Shown here: piece after piece, positions 33,916 to 43,032 of the stretch
How the letters are laid out: every line of letters starts with the position of its first letter
Position numbering within the stretch: position 1 is the first letter of the stretch
Assembly: GCA_022402565.1 (NCBI GenBank)
Contig: JAKRSC010000028.1
Location: 251,604 to 315,603 of the forward strand
Reading direction: 5' to 3'
From: Hydrotalea sp.
Lineage (GTDB): Bacteria > Bacteroidota > Bacteroidia > Chitinophagales > Chitinophagaceae
DNA: 64,000 nt
The notes under the pieces: generated by a model
Seen by the model: the letters and a program-made list of their open reading frames with translations, nothing else
The model's database searches: none
Told to the model about the DNA's origin: nothing
Made by a program: the position numbers and the translations under genes

Positions 33916-34947
33916 TTAAAATGCCTTCCAACCCTGTGCAGTAATATCAAATGTATTACCACCCTTTGAAATTATTTTATGACCTTCATCTAAATCAGCC
34001 ATATATCCAACTACGCTAATTTCTTCTTGAAGAGTCAGCTTTTCATAATCGTCTTGACGAACTGTAAAGATTAACTCATAATCTTCGCCTCCATTTAAAG
34101 CACAAACGGTTGGGTCTAATCCAAATTTAAATGCTGCCCTTCTTGCGTCTTCGTGAATTGGCAGTTTGTCTTCATAAATGCGACAACCAAGTTGACTTTG
34201 TTTACACAGATGTAACACTTCACTACTCAGACCATCACTAATATCCATCATGGAAGTTGGTTTAATTTGTTGGTCTTCTAAATATTGAATAATATCTTTT
34301 CTAGCTTCAGGCTTTAACAATCTACCTACAATAAAAGCTTCATTTTCTAAGTCGGGTTGAACTTGCGGATTCTCTAAATAGATTCTCTTTTCCCTTTCCA
34401 GGAGAGTTAGTCCAAGAAATGCACCACCTAAATATCCAGATACACAAATCAAGTCTCCTTTTTGAGCTGTACTCCTTTTCACAAACTGATCTGGTGCAAC
34501 TTCACCTAAGGCAGTTACAGAAATTAGTAATCCTTTATTAGAGCTAGATGTATCTCCACCTATTAAATCAACACCATATTTATTGCAGGCACTAAGTATT
34601 CCTTCATAAAGCTCTTGCAATGCCTCTACACTAAACCTATTACTGAAAGCTATGTTTACTGTAATTTGCGTAGGCTGCGCATTCATAGCATAAATATCAC
34701 TTAAGTTAACTACTACCGATTTATAGCCTAAATGCCGCAAGGGCGTATAGGTTAAATCAAAGTGTATTCCCTCTACCAATAAATCTGAACTGATCACTGT
34801 TTGTTTCCCAAAATGATCAATAACAGCGCCATCATCGCCTATACCCAATATGGTAGATGCGTGTTGTAATTCTACATTTTTAGTGAGATGGTCAATTAGC
34901 CCAAACTCTCCCAAACTACTTACTTCTGTTCTTGTGGGTGTTGACAT
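33916..34947 (-). CDS. thiL: Thiamine-monophosphate kinase
   Basis: A 343-residue PurM-fold kinase that makes thiamine diphosphate from the monophosphate. The N-terminal GEFGLIDHLT, the ATP/Mg site LGIGDDGAVI, SDLLVEGIHFDL, LIGGDTSSS and SMMDISDGLSSEVLHLC are all conserved ThiL blocks, ending with ALNGGEDYELIFTV. It is 3 bp downstream of the inositol-monophosphatase-family gene, so the two are probably one transcript. Confidence 0.94.
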   Translation of the reverse strand: MSTPTRTEVSSLGEFGLIDHLTKNVELQHASTILGIGDDGAVIDHFGKQTVISSDLLVEGIHFDLTYTPLRHLGYKSVVVNLSDIYAMNAQPTQITVNIAFSNRFSVEALQELYEGILSACNKYGVDLIGGDTSSSNKGLLISVTALGEVAPDQFVKRSTAQKGDLICVSGYLGGAFLGLTLLEREKRIYLENPQVQPDLENEAFIVGRLLKPEARKDIIQYLEDQQIKPTSMMDISDGLSSEVLHLCKQSQLGCRIYEDKLPIHEDARRAAFKFGLDPTVCALNGGEDYELIFTVRQDDYEKLTLQEEISVVGYMADLDEGHKIISKGGNTFDITAQGWKAF

Positions 34948-37270: not shown

Positions 37271-38176
37271 ATGTTATCAAGAAAGTACATATTTCTTATA
37301 AACCCCCATTCTGGTACGCAGAAATTTTCTGCAGTAAAAGCTAACATAGAAGCGTTTATTGAAAAGCATACTCTAGATGCAGAAATTATAGAAACACTCT
37401 CATCTGGTAACTATGATTTGATACACGATAAAATAATTTCTGAAAGAGTTACACATATCATTATTGGTGGGGGAGATGGTACCATACATGGAGTAATAAA
37501 TTCCTTATTTGATTTACCTGTTCAATTTGGTATTTTGCCACTTGGCTCTGGTAATGGCTTAGCTAGAACCTTAGGGATACCCATGCCGCTTCAAAAAGCG
37601 CTGAATTTAATAATAACTGGAAAGCCCGTTTTAATAGATGCAATTGATATTAATAACAAGTTATCGCTCAATGTAAGTGGTTTGGGCTTTGATGCAAGTA
37701 TTGCAGAAGATTTTGCCGGGAGAGTTAAAAGAGGATTATTAACCTACACGCAACAAAGTTTAGTACAGTTTTTTAAAGCCCATCCATATCAGTTTGAAAT
37801 ACAAGTTTTTGGGATGAACTTTTTTACAGAAGCCTTTCTAATTAGCATTGCTAATAGTACACAATTTGGCAATAATTTTACAATTGCACCCAAAGCGAGT
37901 TTAATTGATGGGCTTTTAGACGTAGTAATTGTTCAGAAAATGAATAAAGTAAGACTCCCATTTGCTATGCTCCAACAAATTAGAGGCAATAACCACTTAA
38001 CGGAACTTGTAGAAAAATTTTCTAACCAAGGGATTCTTTATTTTCAAACACCTTCTATTACTATTGTCAATAGAAAACATGCCCCCTTTCATATCGACGG
38101 AGATCCATATCCAGCTTTAGAAACAATACATGCAGCCATTTCTGGCAAAAAAATTCCTATCATTCAACCACTTTAG
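37271..38176 (+). CDS. Diacylglycerol/lipid kinase family protein (YegS/LCB5 type)
   Basis: A 301-residue lipid kinase. It opens with IFLINPHSGTQK and has the catalytic IIGGGDGTIHGVIN motif and nucleotide site GILPLGSGNGLARTLGI. The C-terminal half holds NVSGLGFDASIAEDFAGR and HIDGDPY. It likely phosphorylates a lipid such as diacylglycerol at the membrane. It is divergent from the lipoprotein gene and followed after 77 bp by the HypF-like gene. Confidence 0.9.
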   Translation: MLSRKYIFLINPHSGTQKFSAVKANIEAFIEKHTLDAEIIETLSSGNYDLIHDKIISERVTHIIIGGGDGTIHGVINSLFDLPVQFGILPLGSGNGLARTLGIPMPLQKALNLIITGKPVLIDAIDINNKLSLNVSGLGFDASIAEDFAGRVKRGLLTYTQQSLVQFFKAHPYQFEIQVFGMNFFTEAFLISIANSTQFGNNFTIAPKASLIDGLLDVVIVQKMNKVRLPFAMLQQIRGNNHLTELVEKFSNQGILYFQTPSITIVNRKHAPFHIDGDPYPALETIHAAISGKKIPIIQPL

Positions 38177-38253: not shown

Positions 38254-40515
38254 ATGCCTTGTTTTCGTTTAGATATAAATGGAATGCTTCATGGCGTGGG
38301 CTTTTCTGCCCATGTGCATAGGTTGGCACATGTACATAACGTTTCAGGCATATTGCATTTAGCTACATCTGGGTACCAAGTACATTTTAAGGCCGATTAT
38401 ACAATTGCCGAGGTCTTTACGCAACAAATTGTAAAACAGCATCCTCCCCATGCCATCATACTTTCATATCATTTAAATGAATTAAATGATGAGATAGATT
38501 TTGAAGGCTTTGTTACAGATTACTCAAGCGAGTATCCTCAAACAGGTGCAGGTCTAATTACTCCTGATTTCTCTTTGTGTAACAACTGCCGTCAAGAAAT
38601 GTCGCAAGCAGATCATCCGCTCTATCATTCGCCTTTTATTCAATGCTCGCAATGTGGTTATAGGTACGCAATTCAACTAAATGCTCCATTTCAGTTACAT
38701 AATTCTACTTGGAAACATATTCAACTTGGTGCTCATGCAGAAAATGCAATTGCAGATTCTTTAAATAGAAGGTTTGAAGACTCTTTCTTTGTCTCATTAT
38801 CAGATTCCTTGCATCTTAAATTAATTAATTCTGAAGGCTATACAGTTAGTCAAAATACCCACGATATTCTTTCAATTTCTAAGATGCTTTTATCGCAAGG
38901 AAACATTATTGCTGTGAAAGCAACCGGTGGATTTGTACTTTTATGTGATGCGGCGCAAGAAGACAGTATTCGTTTGCTAAGGGAAAGAAAAAATAGCAGC
39001 TTACAACCACTTCATTTAATGTACAGCGATTTGGATATGGCGCATACAGACATACGTTTGCGCCCTATTGAAATTAGTGCTCTAAAAAACAGAGCTGGTT
39101 TTGCCGTGCTTTGTACTCCCCATCTCAATACACCGCTTCCTTTTGAGTTAATAACACCTGTTGTTCATAAAGCCGCTGTTGTTCTTCCTTATACTGGGTT
39201 GCTTCATATAATAACTGAGCAATTTGGGAAACCTCTAGTTATAACACCAGCCGAAAAACAAGGTTACCCTGCTTTATACTCTGAAAAAGAAAGTTTACAC
39301 GAGTTATTTGAGTTGGCAGATTATGTAATTTCTCACCCATTAGATGTAGCGTTTGGACAGCATGATAGTATTCTACAGTTTACAGAAAGAGAGCAAAAAA
39401 TTATTCTTAGAAGGGCAAGAGGAATGGCGCCTCTATTCGAGCCTAGTCCTTTTAAAATTGGAAGTGAAACTTGGTTAGCACTTGGTGAATCTGCAGAAAG
39501 CGCTTATAGCATTGCTAAAGAAAATTCATATTTCGTGTATGAAAAGCAAGGTAATCAAGAACTAATTCCATCTCAGCAAAAACTCGTTCATCATTTACAG
39601 CTCCAATTAAATATTCTTCAATCAAGCCCATCCGTTATCTTAACTTCAACAGGGTATAAGCCGCCTCATGTATTGAATTTGTTTAGCGAAGCAAAGGTTA
39701 TAGAGGTTCCGCATCAACAGGCGCATTTTTATAGCGTACTTGCAGAGAACGACTTGTTGTTTCATCCTGAACCAGTATTAGGAATTATTTGGGATGATGC
39801 ATTTTTAGGTGATGATGGTATGCTAGGAGGTGGTGATATTTTTATTTATGAGCAACAAGAAATGGAAAGGGTTGCTCATTTAGGGCGTTTCCCTGTACTT
39901 ACTAATAGTGGTATGTATCAACCTCGACTTTCGGCTCTTGGTATTTTGAAAAGTATGCCGAATAAAATGCACTGGGAACGCAGGCATTTCTCAGATGTTG
40001 AATGGCAGGCTTATTTAAGTGAATTAGAAAATGCTAACTTAATTGAAACATCAAGTGTGCAACAATTACTTGAAGGTATTGCTTCACTATTTGGATTAGC
40101 TCAAGTAAACGCACACAGAGGTCATGCGTTGTTGCAATTGGAGCAGTTGGCTTATACCTGTACTTATCCAGTTTATGATTATTATAGATTGCCTCTAGAA
40201 AATGGGCAACTGAATTTGAAAAGTTTTTTGATAGAATTAATGGAAGATTGGCAACAAAAGGAGGACATTAATGTAATTGCATGGAAGGTATTCTTCTCTT
40301 TAGCAAAAGTGGTTGAGAAGCTAAGTAATCATTATTATATAGATCATATAGCTTTCAGTGGCACAGTCTTTAAGAGTAGTCTTCTAACTGATATGATTAT
40401 TGAACAACTTAAGCATAAACGTAAACTTTATTTCCATAAGCAAATTTGTTCTGGTAGTGAATGTATTTCAATAGGACAAATGGCTTATTACTATTGTTTG
40501 CAACCTCGTGCATAA
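38254..40515 (+). CDS. Divergent HypF-like protein (acylphosphatase-like, zinc finger, YrdC-like, Kae1-like)
   Basis: 753 residues from ATG 38254. The domain order is that of the hydrogenase maturation carbamoyltransferase HypF. Residues 5-95 resemble an acylphosphatase, but the catalytic Arg after GVGF is Ser18. One zinc finger is intact (Cys109/112, Cys131/134, spacing C-x2-C-x18-C-x2-C); the second has lost its cysteines. A YrdC-like domain (about 200-392) has AVKATGGFVLLCDA and RRARGMAP. A Kae1-like domain (about 400-750) keeps His487-x3-His491 and DD-x4-GDDG, but the C-terminal NDGG site reads SGSECIS. No hyp or hydrogenase genes are near. It is probably not a standard HypF. Confidence 0.8.
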   Translation: MPCFRLDINGMLHGVGFSAHVHRLAHVHNVSGILHLATSGYQVHFKADYTIAEVFTQQIVKQHPPHAIILSYHLNELNDEIDFEGFVTDYSSEYPQTGAGLITPDFSLCNNCRQEMSQADHPLYHSPFIQCSQCGYRYAIQLNAPFQLHNSTWKHIQLGAHAENAIADSLNRRFEDSFFVSLSDSLHLKLINSEGYTVSQNTHDILSISKMLLSQGNIIAVKATGGFVLLCDAAQEDSIRLLRERKNSSLQPLHLMYSDLDMAHTDIRLRPIEISALKNRAGFAVLCTPHLNTPLPFELITPVVHKAAVVLPYTGLLHIITEQFGKPLVITPAEKQGYPALYSEKESLHELFELADYVISHPLDVAFGQHDSILQFTEREQKIILRRARGMAPLFEPSPFKIGSETWLALGESAESAYSIAKENSYFVYEKQGNQELIPSQQKLVHHLQLQLNILQSSPSVILTSTGYKPPHVLNLFSEAKVIEVPHQQAHFYSVLAENDLLFHPEPVLGIIWDDAFLGDDGMLGGGDIFIYEQQEMERVAHLGRFPVLTNSGMYQPRLSALGILKSMPNKMHWERRHFSDVEWQAYLSELENANLIETSSVQQLLEGIASLFGLAQVNAHRGHALLQLEQLAYTCTYPVYDYYRLPLENGQLNLKSFLIELMEDWQQKEDINVIAWKVFFSLAKVVEKLSNHYYIDHIAFSGTVFKSSLLTDMIIEQLKHKRKLYFHKQICSGSECISIGQMAYYYCLQPRA

Positions 40516-40530
40516 ATAAATTCTAAGTAT

Positions 40531-41004
40531 ATGAAACAGATAGTTTGCTCACTTGCTTTTACAATGATATTGTTTGTAGCTTCTTCACAACAAGTAGATC
40601 GAATGAATCCAGATGGCATTAATAAGCCCGCCACGTATTCTCAAGTTGTACGTGTTAATAAAGGAACAATGGTTTTTACTTCGGGAATAGTTTCAGATAA
40701 TGAGAAAGGAGAAATTATTGGTAAAGGCGATTTAAAAGCACAGACTAAACAATGTTTCGAAAATTTGAAGATTGCTTTGGCCGCAGCTGGCGCAGAATTT
40801 AAAGATGTTGTTAAGATAAATTATTATGTGGTGAACTATGATAGAAGTCAAGTTGGACTTATAAGAGAAGTGCGTTCAAATTATTTAGATACAAAAGCAT
40901 TACCTGCAAGTACATTAGCAGGGGTGCAAGCACTTTTTCATCCCGATGTCTTAATTGAAATTGAAGCTATAGCTGTAGTGCCTAAAAAGAAGAAGAAATC
41001 TTGA
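40531..41004 (+). CDS. Exported Rid (YjgF/YER057c/UK114) family protein
   Basis: A 157-residue protein with an N-terminal signal peptide (about residues 1-19, ending ASSQ) and a Rid domain with GTMVFTSGIVS, QTKQCFENLKIALAAAG, VVKINYYVVNY and the arginine/glutamate ligand region VLIEIEAIAV. Cytosolic RidA deaminates reactive enamines; this one appears to be exported and ends in KKKKKS. It lies 15 bp after the HypF-like gene on the same strand, so co-transcription is likely. The role in the periplasm is unknown. Confidence 0.85.
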   Translation: MKQIVCSLAFTMILFVASSQQVDRMNPDGINKPATYSQVVRVNKGTMVFTSGIVSDNEKGEIIGKGDLKAQTKQCFENLKIALAAAGAEFKDVVKINYYVVNYDRSQVGLIREVRSNYLDTKALPASTLAGVQALFHPDVLIEIEAIAVVPKKKKKS

Positions 41005-42417: not shown

Positions 42418-43032
42418 CTATTCATTTTCTTCCCATGGACCAGCCCCTTGACGAATGAGTTCGTAAGGCGATTGTGTACAATCTACAATGGTTGATGGAA
42501 TCATGCCACCAATTCCACCATCGACTACCATGTCAACGAGTTTCTCAAATTTTTCATGAATGAGTTCTGGATCTGTATATTCTTCCACCATATCACCTGG
42601 TAACGATGCTGAAAGAATGGGGTTGCCTAATTGTTCAACAATGGCTTGTGTGATTTTATTATCAGGAATTCTTAAGCCAATCGTACTTTTTTTGCTTTGT
42701 AAAATTTTAGGAACTTCTTTGCTAGCTGGTAAAATAAATGTGTAGGGACCGGGTAAATAGCTCTTTAAGGTTCTATAAAGTGGTGTCCCAATACTTTTTG
42801 TGTATTTGCTTAAATCACTTAAATCAGCACACACAAAACTTAGTTGCGCTTTTTGTGGATCTACTTGCTTAATGCGTGCAATTTTCTCCAGTGCTTTATG
42901 TTGAAAAATATCGCAGCCAATACCATATATGGTATCTGTTGGGTAGATAATGACGCCACCCGACTGCAAGCATTCTGTGATGATGCGGATGTGCCGTGTT
43001 GATGGATTATCTGGATGAACGCGAATGAACAT
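42418..43032 (-). CDS. YciO-type YrdC/Sua5 domain protein
   Basis: A 204-residue protein with the YrdC/Sua5 fold: VIIYPTDTIYGIGCD, LSFVCADLSDLSKY, LPGPYTFILPASKEVPKIL, and TIGLRIPDN. Automatic annotation would call it threonylcarbamoyladenylate synthase. However, the block ILSASLPGD has Leu where TsaC/Sua5 has the conserved Asn of its KRSN tetrad, as in E. coli YciO. I therefore prefer YciO, a paralogue of less certain function. It lies about 1.9 kb from the HypF-like gene, which also contains a YrdC domain. Confidence 0.8.
   Translation of the reverse strand: MFIRVHPDNPSTRHIRIITECLQSGGVIIYPTDTIYGIGCDIFQHKALEKIARIKQVDPQKAQLSFVCADLSDLSKYTKSIGTPLYRTLKSYLPGPYTFILPASKEVPKILQSKKSTIGLRIPDNKITQAIVEQLGNPILSASLPGDMVEEYTDPELIHEKFEKLVDMVVDGGIGGMIPSTIVDCTQSPYELIRQGAGPWEENE

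Follow-up and report, generated by a model that had tools for sequence, protein, structure and literature searches.

HypF is commonly regarded as a marker of [NiFe]-hydrogenase maturation. The accessible part of PMC6022934 describes it as carrying three linked active sites. In the available excerpt of PMC9654439, the YrdC unit has KxR...SxN as its catalytic motif and the Kae1 unit a motif of two histidines with an aspartate, and HypF and TobZ conserve both. Incomplete genomes have been reported that carry hyp genes but none for a hydrogenase: the relevant portion of PMC7761526 gives, for two of three metagenome-assembled genomes, only some of the accessory hyp genes, and hypF is not named there. 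No description of a degenerate or orphan HypF was found in the literature searched, most subscription journals being outside the reach of the search.

The window (the whole stretch of DNA analysed, 64,000 nucleotides) contains at 38254-40515 on the + strand an open reading frame, uninterrupted from ATG to stop, for a protein of 753 amino acids. The frame, Pfam and the HypF equivalog model identified it as a HypF-like protein. Pfam matches were obtained with Acylphosphatase (residues 6-87), zf-HYPF (108-140, this model matching a single finger), Sua5_yciO_yrdC (212-387), HypF_C (405-498) and HypF_C_2 (510-742). The preliminary description had recognised the domain order of HypF, acylphosphatase, zinc finger, YrdC and Kae1, and this was confirmed by Pfam, the AlphaFold2 model being in agreement. 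The NCBIfam HypF equivalog TIGR00143 covered residues 7-744 with 360 bits, below its cut-off of 466.1; all eight HypFs of relatives scanned against the same library passed it, with 486.9-703.3 bits.

The motifs were compared in an alignment of the window protein with 40 other rows (41 in total), 20 of the 41 being displayed as motif blocks. Conservation, simulation and hydrophobic-column counts were made on a canonical set of 33 HypFs of the family, which left out five fragments (L019, L021, L023, L027 and L028), the highly divergent L025, and L086, which is identical to L006. In the acylphosphatase-like domain (38269-38514, + strand, amino acids 6-87; PF00708), the arginine and asparagine that we take to be the catalytic residues were both lost (R18S and N36L). 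The arginine was present in all 37 other rows covering the column, the remaining three of the 40 being fragments that lack it. Two CxxC-x18-CxxC fingers are expected of a HypF. The first (38575-38673, + strand, amino acids 108-140; PF07503) was intact, with C109, C112, C131 and C134, and the second (38728-38805, + strand, amino acids 159-184 in the alignment) was gone, its cysteines C159, C162, C181 and C184 being replaced by G, A, S and D.

The YrdC-like domain (38887-39414, + strand, amino acids 212-387; PF01300) retained only K246 of the KxR...SxN tetrad, with R248S, S332P and N334E; K251Q was also observed, and K222 and T331 were kept. The motif is that of the excerpt of PMC9654439, and its placement on the window protein is our own. 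The Kae1-like domain extended over 39466-40479 (+ strand, amino acids 405-742; PF17788 and PF22521). In its two-histidine-plus-aspartate site, H487, H491 and D514 were retained and D735 was lost (D735S), the identity of the metal-ligand aspartate being assumed here. E736 was kept, and within residues 641-680 the protein retained 10 of the 11 columns that reach at least 60% conservation. Other changes in this domain included H488Q, G515D, G517F, G704T, Q707K and N734G, together with the loss of G603, R604 and E622.

Ser18, the second finger without cysteines, the intact first finger and the HxxxH metal site had all been noticed in the preliminary description and were borne out by the alignment, which added N36L and the four YrdC substitutions. 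The proposed change of an NDGG block to SGSECIS stood in part: Asn-Asp is lost, G-S being aligned with N734-D735, but in the 20 rows displayed the relatives have not NDGG but NDE, with C, N, S or G as the next residue. Judged from these aligned sequences, the E (and the C) of SGSECIS is a common family state and the real loss is that of N-D. Over the whole protein, 66 of the 120 columns conserved at 97% or more in the canonical set were kept. In a leave-one-out control, every canonical row kept 121 of its 121-128 conserved columns. Since none of the three reactions of HypF has kept all its motif residues, the window protein was not classed as a functional HypF.

The gene had been called an orphan from its surroundings in the window, and a search of the whole genome had been proposed. 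The source genome (2.98 Mb in 35 contigs) is rated 100% complete. The window protein was the only zf-HYPF match in it, and the genome-wide profile searches gave no match for HypD and none for the NiFe large subunit. Three genes matched the HypE model, none reaching the cut-off; one of them is the gene at 33916-34947 of the window (L125), which by our reading is ThiL. The orphan status therefore held for HypD, HypE and the NiFe large subunit: by these markers, no hyp operon that this copy would serve as sole HypF lay elsewhere in the genome, and the copy is not broken. In a first set of 195 family genomes, 24 had a HypF match, and among these 24, the genomes covered by the hydrogenase test, both HypD and the NiFe large subunit were found in 23, the exception each time being the genome of the window. 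In a larger family set, 50 of 394 genomes were HypF-positive, 47 of them with HypD. The 26 positive genomes new in this set included 24 with HypD, and the two others are 78-79% complete. Two genomes (G073 and G193) matched HypD but not HypF, one of these matches being a fragment and the other below the cut-off. In a single-contig genome (G254:C1:50531-53973) the HypF and HypD matches each fell in two neighbouring pieces, perhaps through frameshifts or sequencing errors.

Full-length matches above 41% identity to the window protein were absent from the family (394), genus (3) and order (396) genomes, sets that overlap; HypD was tested within the family, and the 40 order hits outside it may include orphans. 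Partial matches reached 47% over residues 355-749 (G190) and 55% over residues 627-749 (G128), and both genomes have HypD. Another genome of the genus (G146) carries two HypF-HypD sets (L026 and L132), and the gene pair of hydrogenase type close to the second set is a different one.

The HypF-like gene lies outside any hyp cluster, in a neighbourhood of diacylglycerol-kinase, Rid and TsaC genes. A diacylglycerol-kinase-family gene identified by Pfam (37271-38176, + strand) ends 77 bp before it. Downstream, after the gap of 15 bp (40516-40530) correctly given in the preliminary description, comes a Rid-family gene (40531-41004, + strand; Pfam and similarity) with an N-terminal signal-like stretch seen by eye, and TsaC, which passes its family cut-off, is located at 42418-43032. 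In all six stretches read around relatives' HypF genes (L128-L133), HypF came together with hydrogenase-type genes and with genes of the hypA, hypB and hypD types; hypE was there too in five, the contig of L129 ending inside hypD. The names in these stretches were given by similarity to L086 genes, themselves named by reading, and Pfam models also found HypD and the large subunit in the genomes concerned. In both congeners, HypF sits within a hyp cluster. Five stretches surrounding the kinase gene in relatives (L134-L138) had no HypF match, and TsaC was present in four of them. No HypF was found in 24 shorter kinase-family loci (L101-L124), some of which are paralogues. The kinase gene itself had no match at E <= 0.001 in either of the two other genomes of the genus.

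Both of these genomes possess the Rid gene (62-64% identity), adjoining a gene for 349 amino acids, and their 20-kb Rid stretches (L172 and L173) gave only chance-level tblastn pieces for HypF (E 0.4 or worse). As the seven kinase and Rid stretches are without HypF, the HypF-like gene sits where the relatives read have none. HypF and Rid were not adjacent in any of the 13 stretches read around relatives' HypF, kinase or Rid. The two were on the same contig in one more distant relative (G163), where a Rid-like match (37%, with an internal stop) lay about 12 kb from HypF. The suggestion that Rid is a functional partner thus gained little from the congeners, and Rid was not retained as a conserved partner. 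Among the 21 genomes searched, the 62-64% form of Rid was seen only in the two congeners, the next match by score being at 37%.

The window protein is 37% identical to the HypFs of its own genus; a genus HypF (L010) is 53-58% identical to those of other genera (L003, L006, L007 and L008). A first tree, which left out the five fragments and included L025 and L086, placed it near g87 and the own-genus sequences with a support of 83/13, a weak placement, and a second tree of 26 chosen rows did not resolve its position. A topology uniting it with the genus HypF gave a borderline result (p-AU 0.0509). It may have arisen either by duplication within the lineage or by transfer. Its end branch, at 2.77 changes per column, exceeds the median of 0.45. 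That of the canonical L025 was longer still (5.1), so branch length by itself does not set the protein apart. L025, from a genome with HypD and the NiFe large subunit (G075), is 24% identical to the window protein and yet keeps the VQGVGFRP, Asn-Asp and zinc-finger motifs, so divergence by itself is not accompanied by motif loss.

The AlphaFold2 model had a mean pLDDT of 87.3 and a pTM of 0.88. Its best PDB matches were HypF structures (Z 44-47.5), among them 3vti (Z 47.5, rmsd 7.1 over 728 residues), 3tsq (Z 47.0, rmsd 2.4 over 630 residues) and 4g9i (Z 46.3, rmsd 4.6 over 721 residues). Because the 35-row input alignment (A1) otherwise consisted of canonical HypFs, which pull the model towards their fold, the predicted structure is compatible with a HypF fold, short of proof.

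We propose that the window protein is probably a relocated, fast-evolving HypF pseudoenzyme, present in one genome, whose open and fold-compatible frame has been kept under selection. In this model, a hypF copy would have moved away from the hydrogenase-maturation cluster, in a genome from which the NiFe hydrogenase, HypD and HypE are absent. The copy has lost residues for carbamoyl-phosphate hydrolysis, for carbamoyl-adenylate formation and for carbamoyl transfer to HypE, and the protein would be unable to perform the chemistry of HypF. It would work by binding and not by catalysis, either to a protein partner or to a metal or nucleotide in what remains of the Kae1 cleft (H487, H491 and D514). 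Its current role is probably non-catalytic and other than hydrogenase building. The preliminary description had seen in it a HypF-derived protein with a new carbamoyl-transfer or nucleotide-related role. The derivation, the orphan state and the altered sites were upheld; carbamoyl transfer was not, R18 and N36, the YrdC tetrad except its K and the Kae1 Asn-Asp being lost. A nucleotide- or metal-binding role may nevertheless be considered from the residues, since H487, H491, D514 and E736 remain.

The pattern of replacements was compared with neutral expectation by mutating the genes of three relatives to the observed retention of 55% (600 runs). The simulated genes acquired on average 20.4-23.1 stops, with a minimum of 8 in the 600 runs, and the observed gene has none. 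Even at 10% replacement, about five stops were expected (minimum 1 in 60 runs). Among the near-invariant positions, 42 of 57 nonpolar, glycine or proline residues were retained against 24 of 63 polar ones, a gap of 0.36, the largest of the 600 neutral runs being 0.29. Residues were hydrophobic at 178 of the 197 hydrophobic columns, and the GC content by codon position was 51/34/26%. Other measures pointed the other way. Retention was flat across columns of at least 70% conservation (0.59, 0.61 and 0.55), a pattern that general relaxation would produce. At the changed conserved hydrophobic columns, 19 of 33 residues were still hydrophobic for a neutral expectation of 0.51, which is not significant (p = 0.28), and neither was a looser cut (28 of 45, p = 0.12).

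These observations bear on the alternative of a relic in decay, in which the hydrogenase was lost and the gene has been drifting for a time too short to close its frame. The flat retention, the neutral-looking hydrophobic sub-test and the lack of any full-length match above 41% in the 394 family and 396 order genomes (overlapping sets) are in its favour. The replacement of 45% of the near-invariant residues should by then have produced about 20-23 stops, and the intact frame, the stops already expected at 10% replacement and a polarity contrast beyond the neutral range make neutral decay unlikely. Giving more weight to the stop count and the polarity than to the null tests suggests that coding and fold constraint persists and that catalytic constraint is lost. 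The form was found in one genome only, a sample in which selection within the lineage is not measurable.

HypF might also have been exapted outside hydrogenase biology: after the carbamoyl chemistry was gone, the residual Kae1 cleft and zinc finger 1 would have taken on a new role in this lineage, in catalysis or in sensing, and we regard this as rather doubtful. A neofunctionalised enzyme, whose Kae1-type cleft would bind a metal and a nucleotide and carry out a transfer or hydrolysis reaction new to it, possibly with Rid or TsaC, appears improbable. The metal-site histidines, D514, E736 and the well-kept segment 641-680 would fit such an enzyme. However, the YrdC tetrad is down to its K, the acylphosphatase residues are gone, Kae1 glycines are altered (G515D, G517F and G704T) and Rid is unlinked to HypF in two congeners. 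Moreover, as an export signal seems by eye to be present on Rid only, the two proteins may not share a compartment. It is very hard to believe that the gene is the ordinary HypF of a hyp and hydrogenase cluster fallen into an assembly gap, a reading that the 35 contigs would allow, but that conflicts with the completeness rating of 100% without HypD, HypE above its cut-off or the NiFe large subunit, and with motif losses that would probably inactivate such a HypF.

With the pseudoenzyme as the preferred reading, a bacterium that has hydrogen-using relatives, and in which no hydrogenase was detected, retains one full-length, altered copy of HypF type that domain-based annotation would call HypF. 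If true, this would show that a maturation enzyme has become a pseudoenzyme in nature, and would caution that hydrogen metabolism should not be deduced from the presence of hypF by itself. A question that could then be tested is what portion of the HypF scaffold remains useful once the chemistry is gone.

Compared with known systems, the window protein resembles TsaC/Sua5 and TsaD in how its individual domains are folded (TsaC2 9dsq, Z 19.1, rmsd 2.4 over 199 residues; TsaD-TsaB 8iey, Z 14.4, rmsd 3.4 over 269 residues). A role as substitute for TsaC in t6A synthesis was ruled out, as the separate TsaC at 42418-43032 makes it unneeded. With the O-carbamoyltransferases of the TobZ/GdmN type it has the YrdC and Kae1 domains in common. 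In the excerpt of PMC9654439, the domain order of TobZ is opposite and the catalytic KxR...SxN is conserved, whereas the window protein has only the K of the tetrad and possesses acylphosphatase and zinc-finger domains. It differs from HypF (TIGR00143; 3vti, 3tsq and 4g9i) by its sub-equivalog score, by the loss of R18, N36, R248, S332, N334, N734-D735 and zinc finger 2, by a genome without HypD, hydrogenase or HypE above the cut-off, and by its location outside a hyp cluster. It shares with HypF the four-domain order, the length, the predicted fold (Z 46.3-47.5), zinc finger 1, the HxxxH site and D514.
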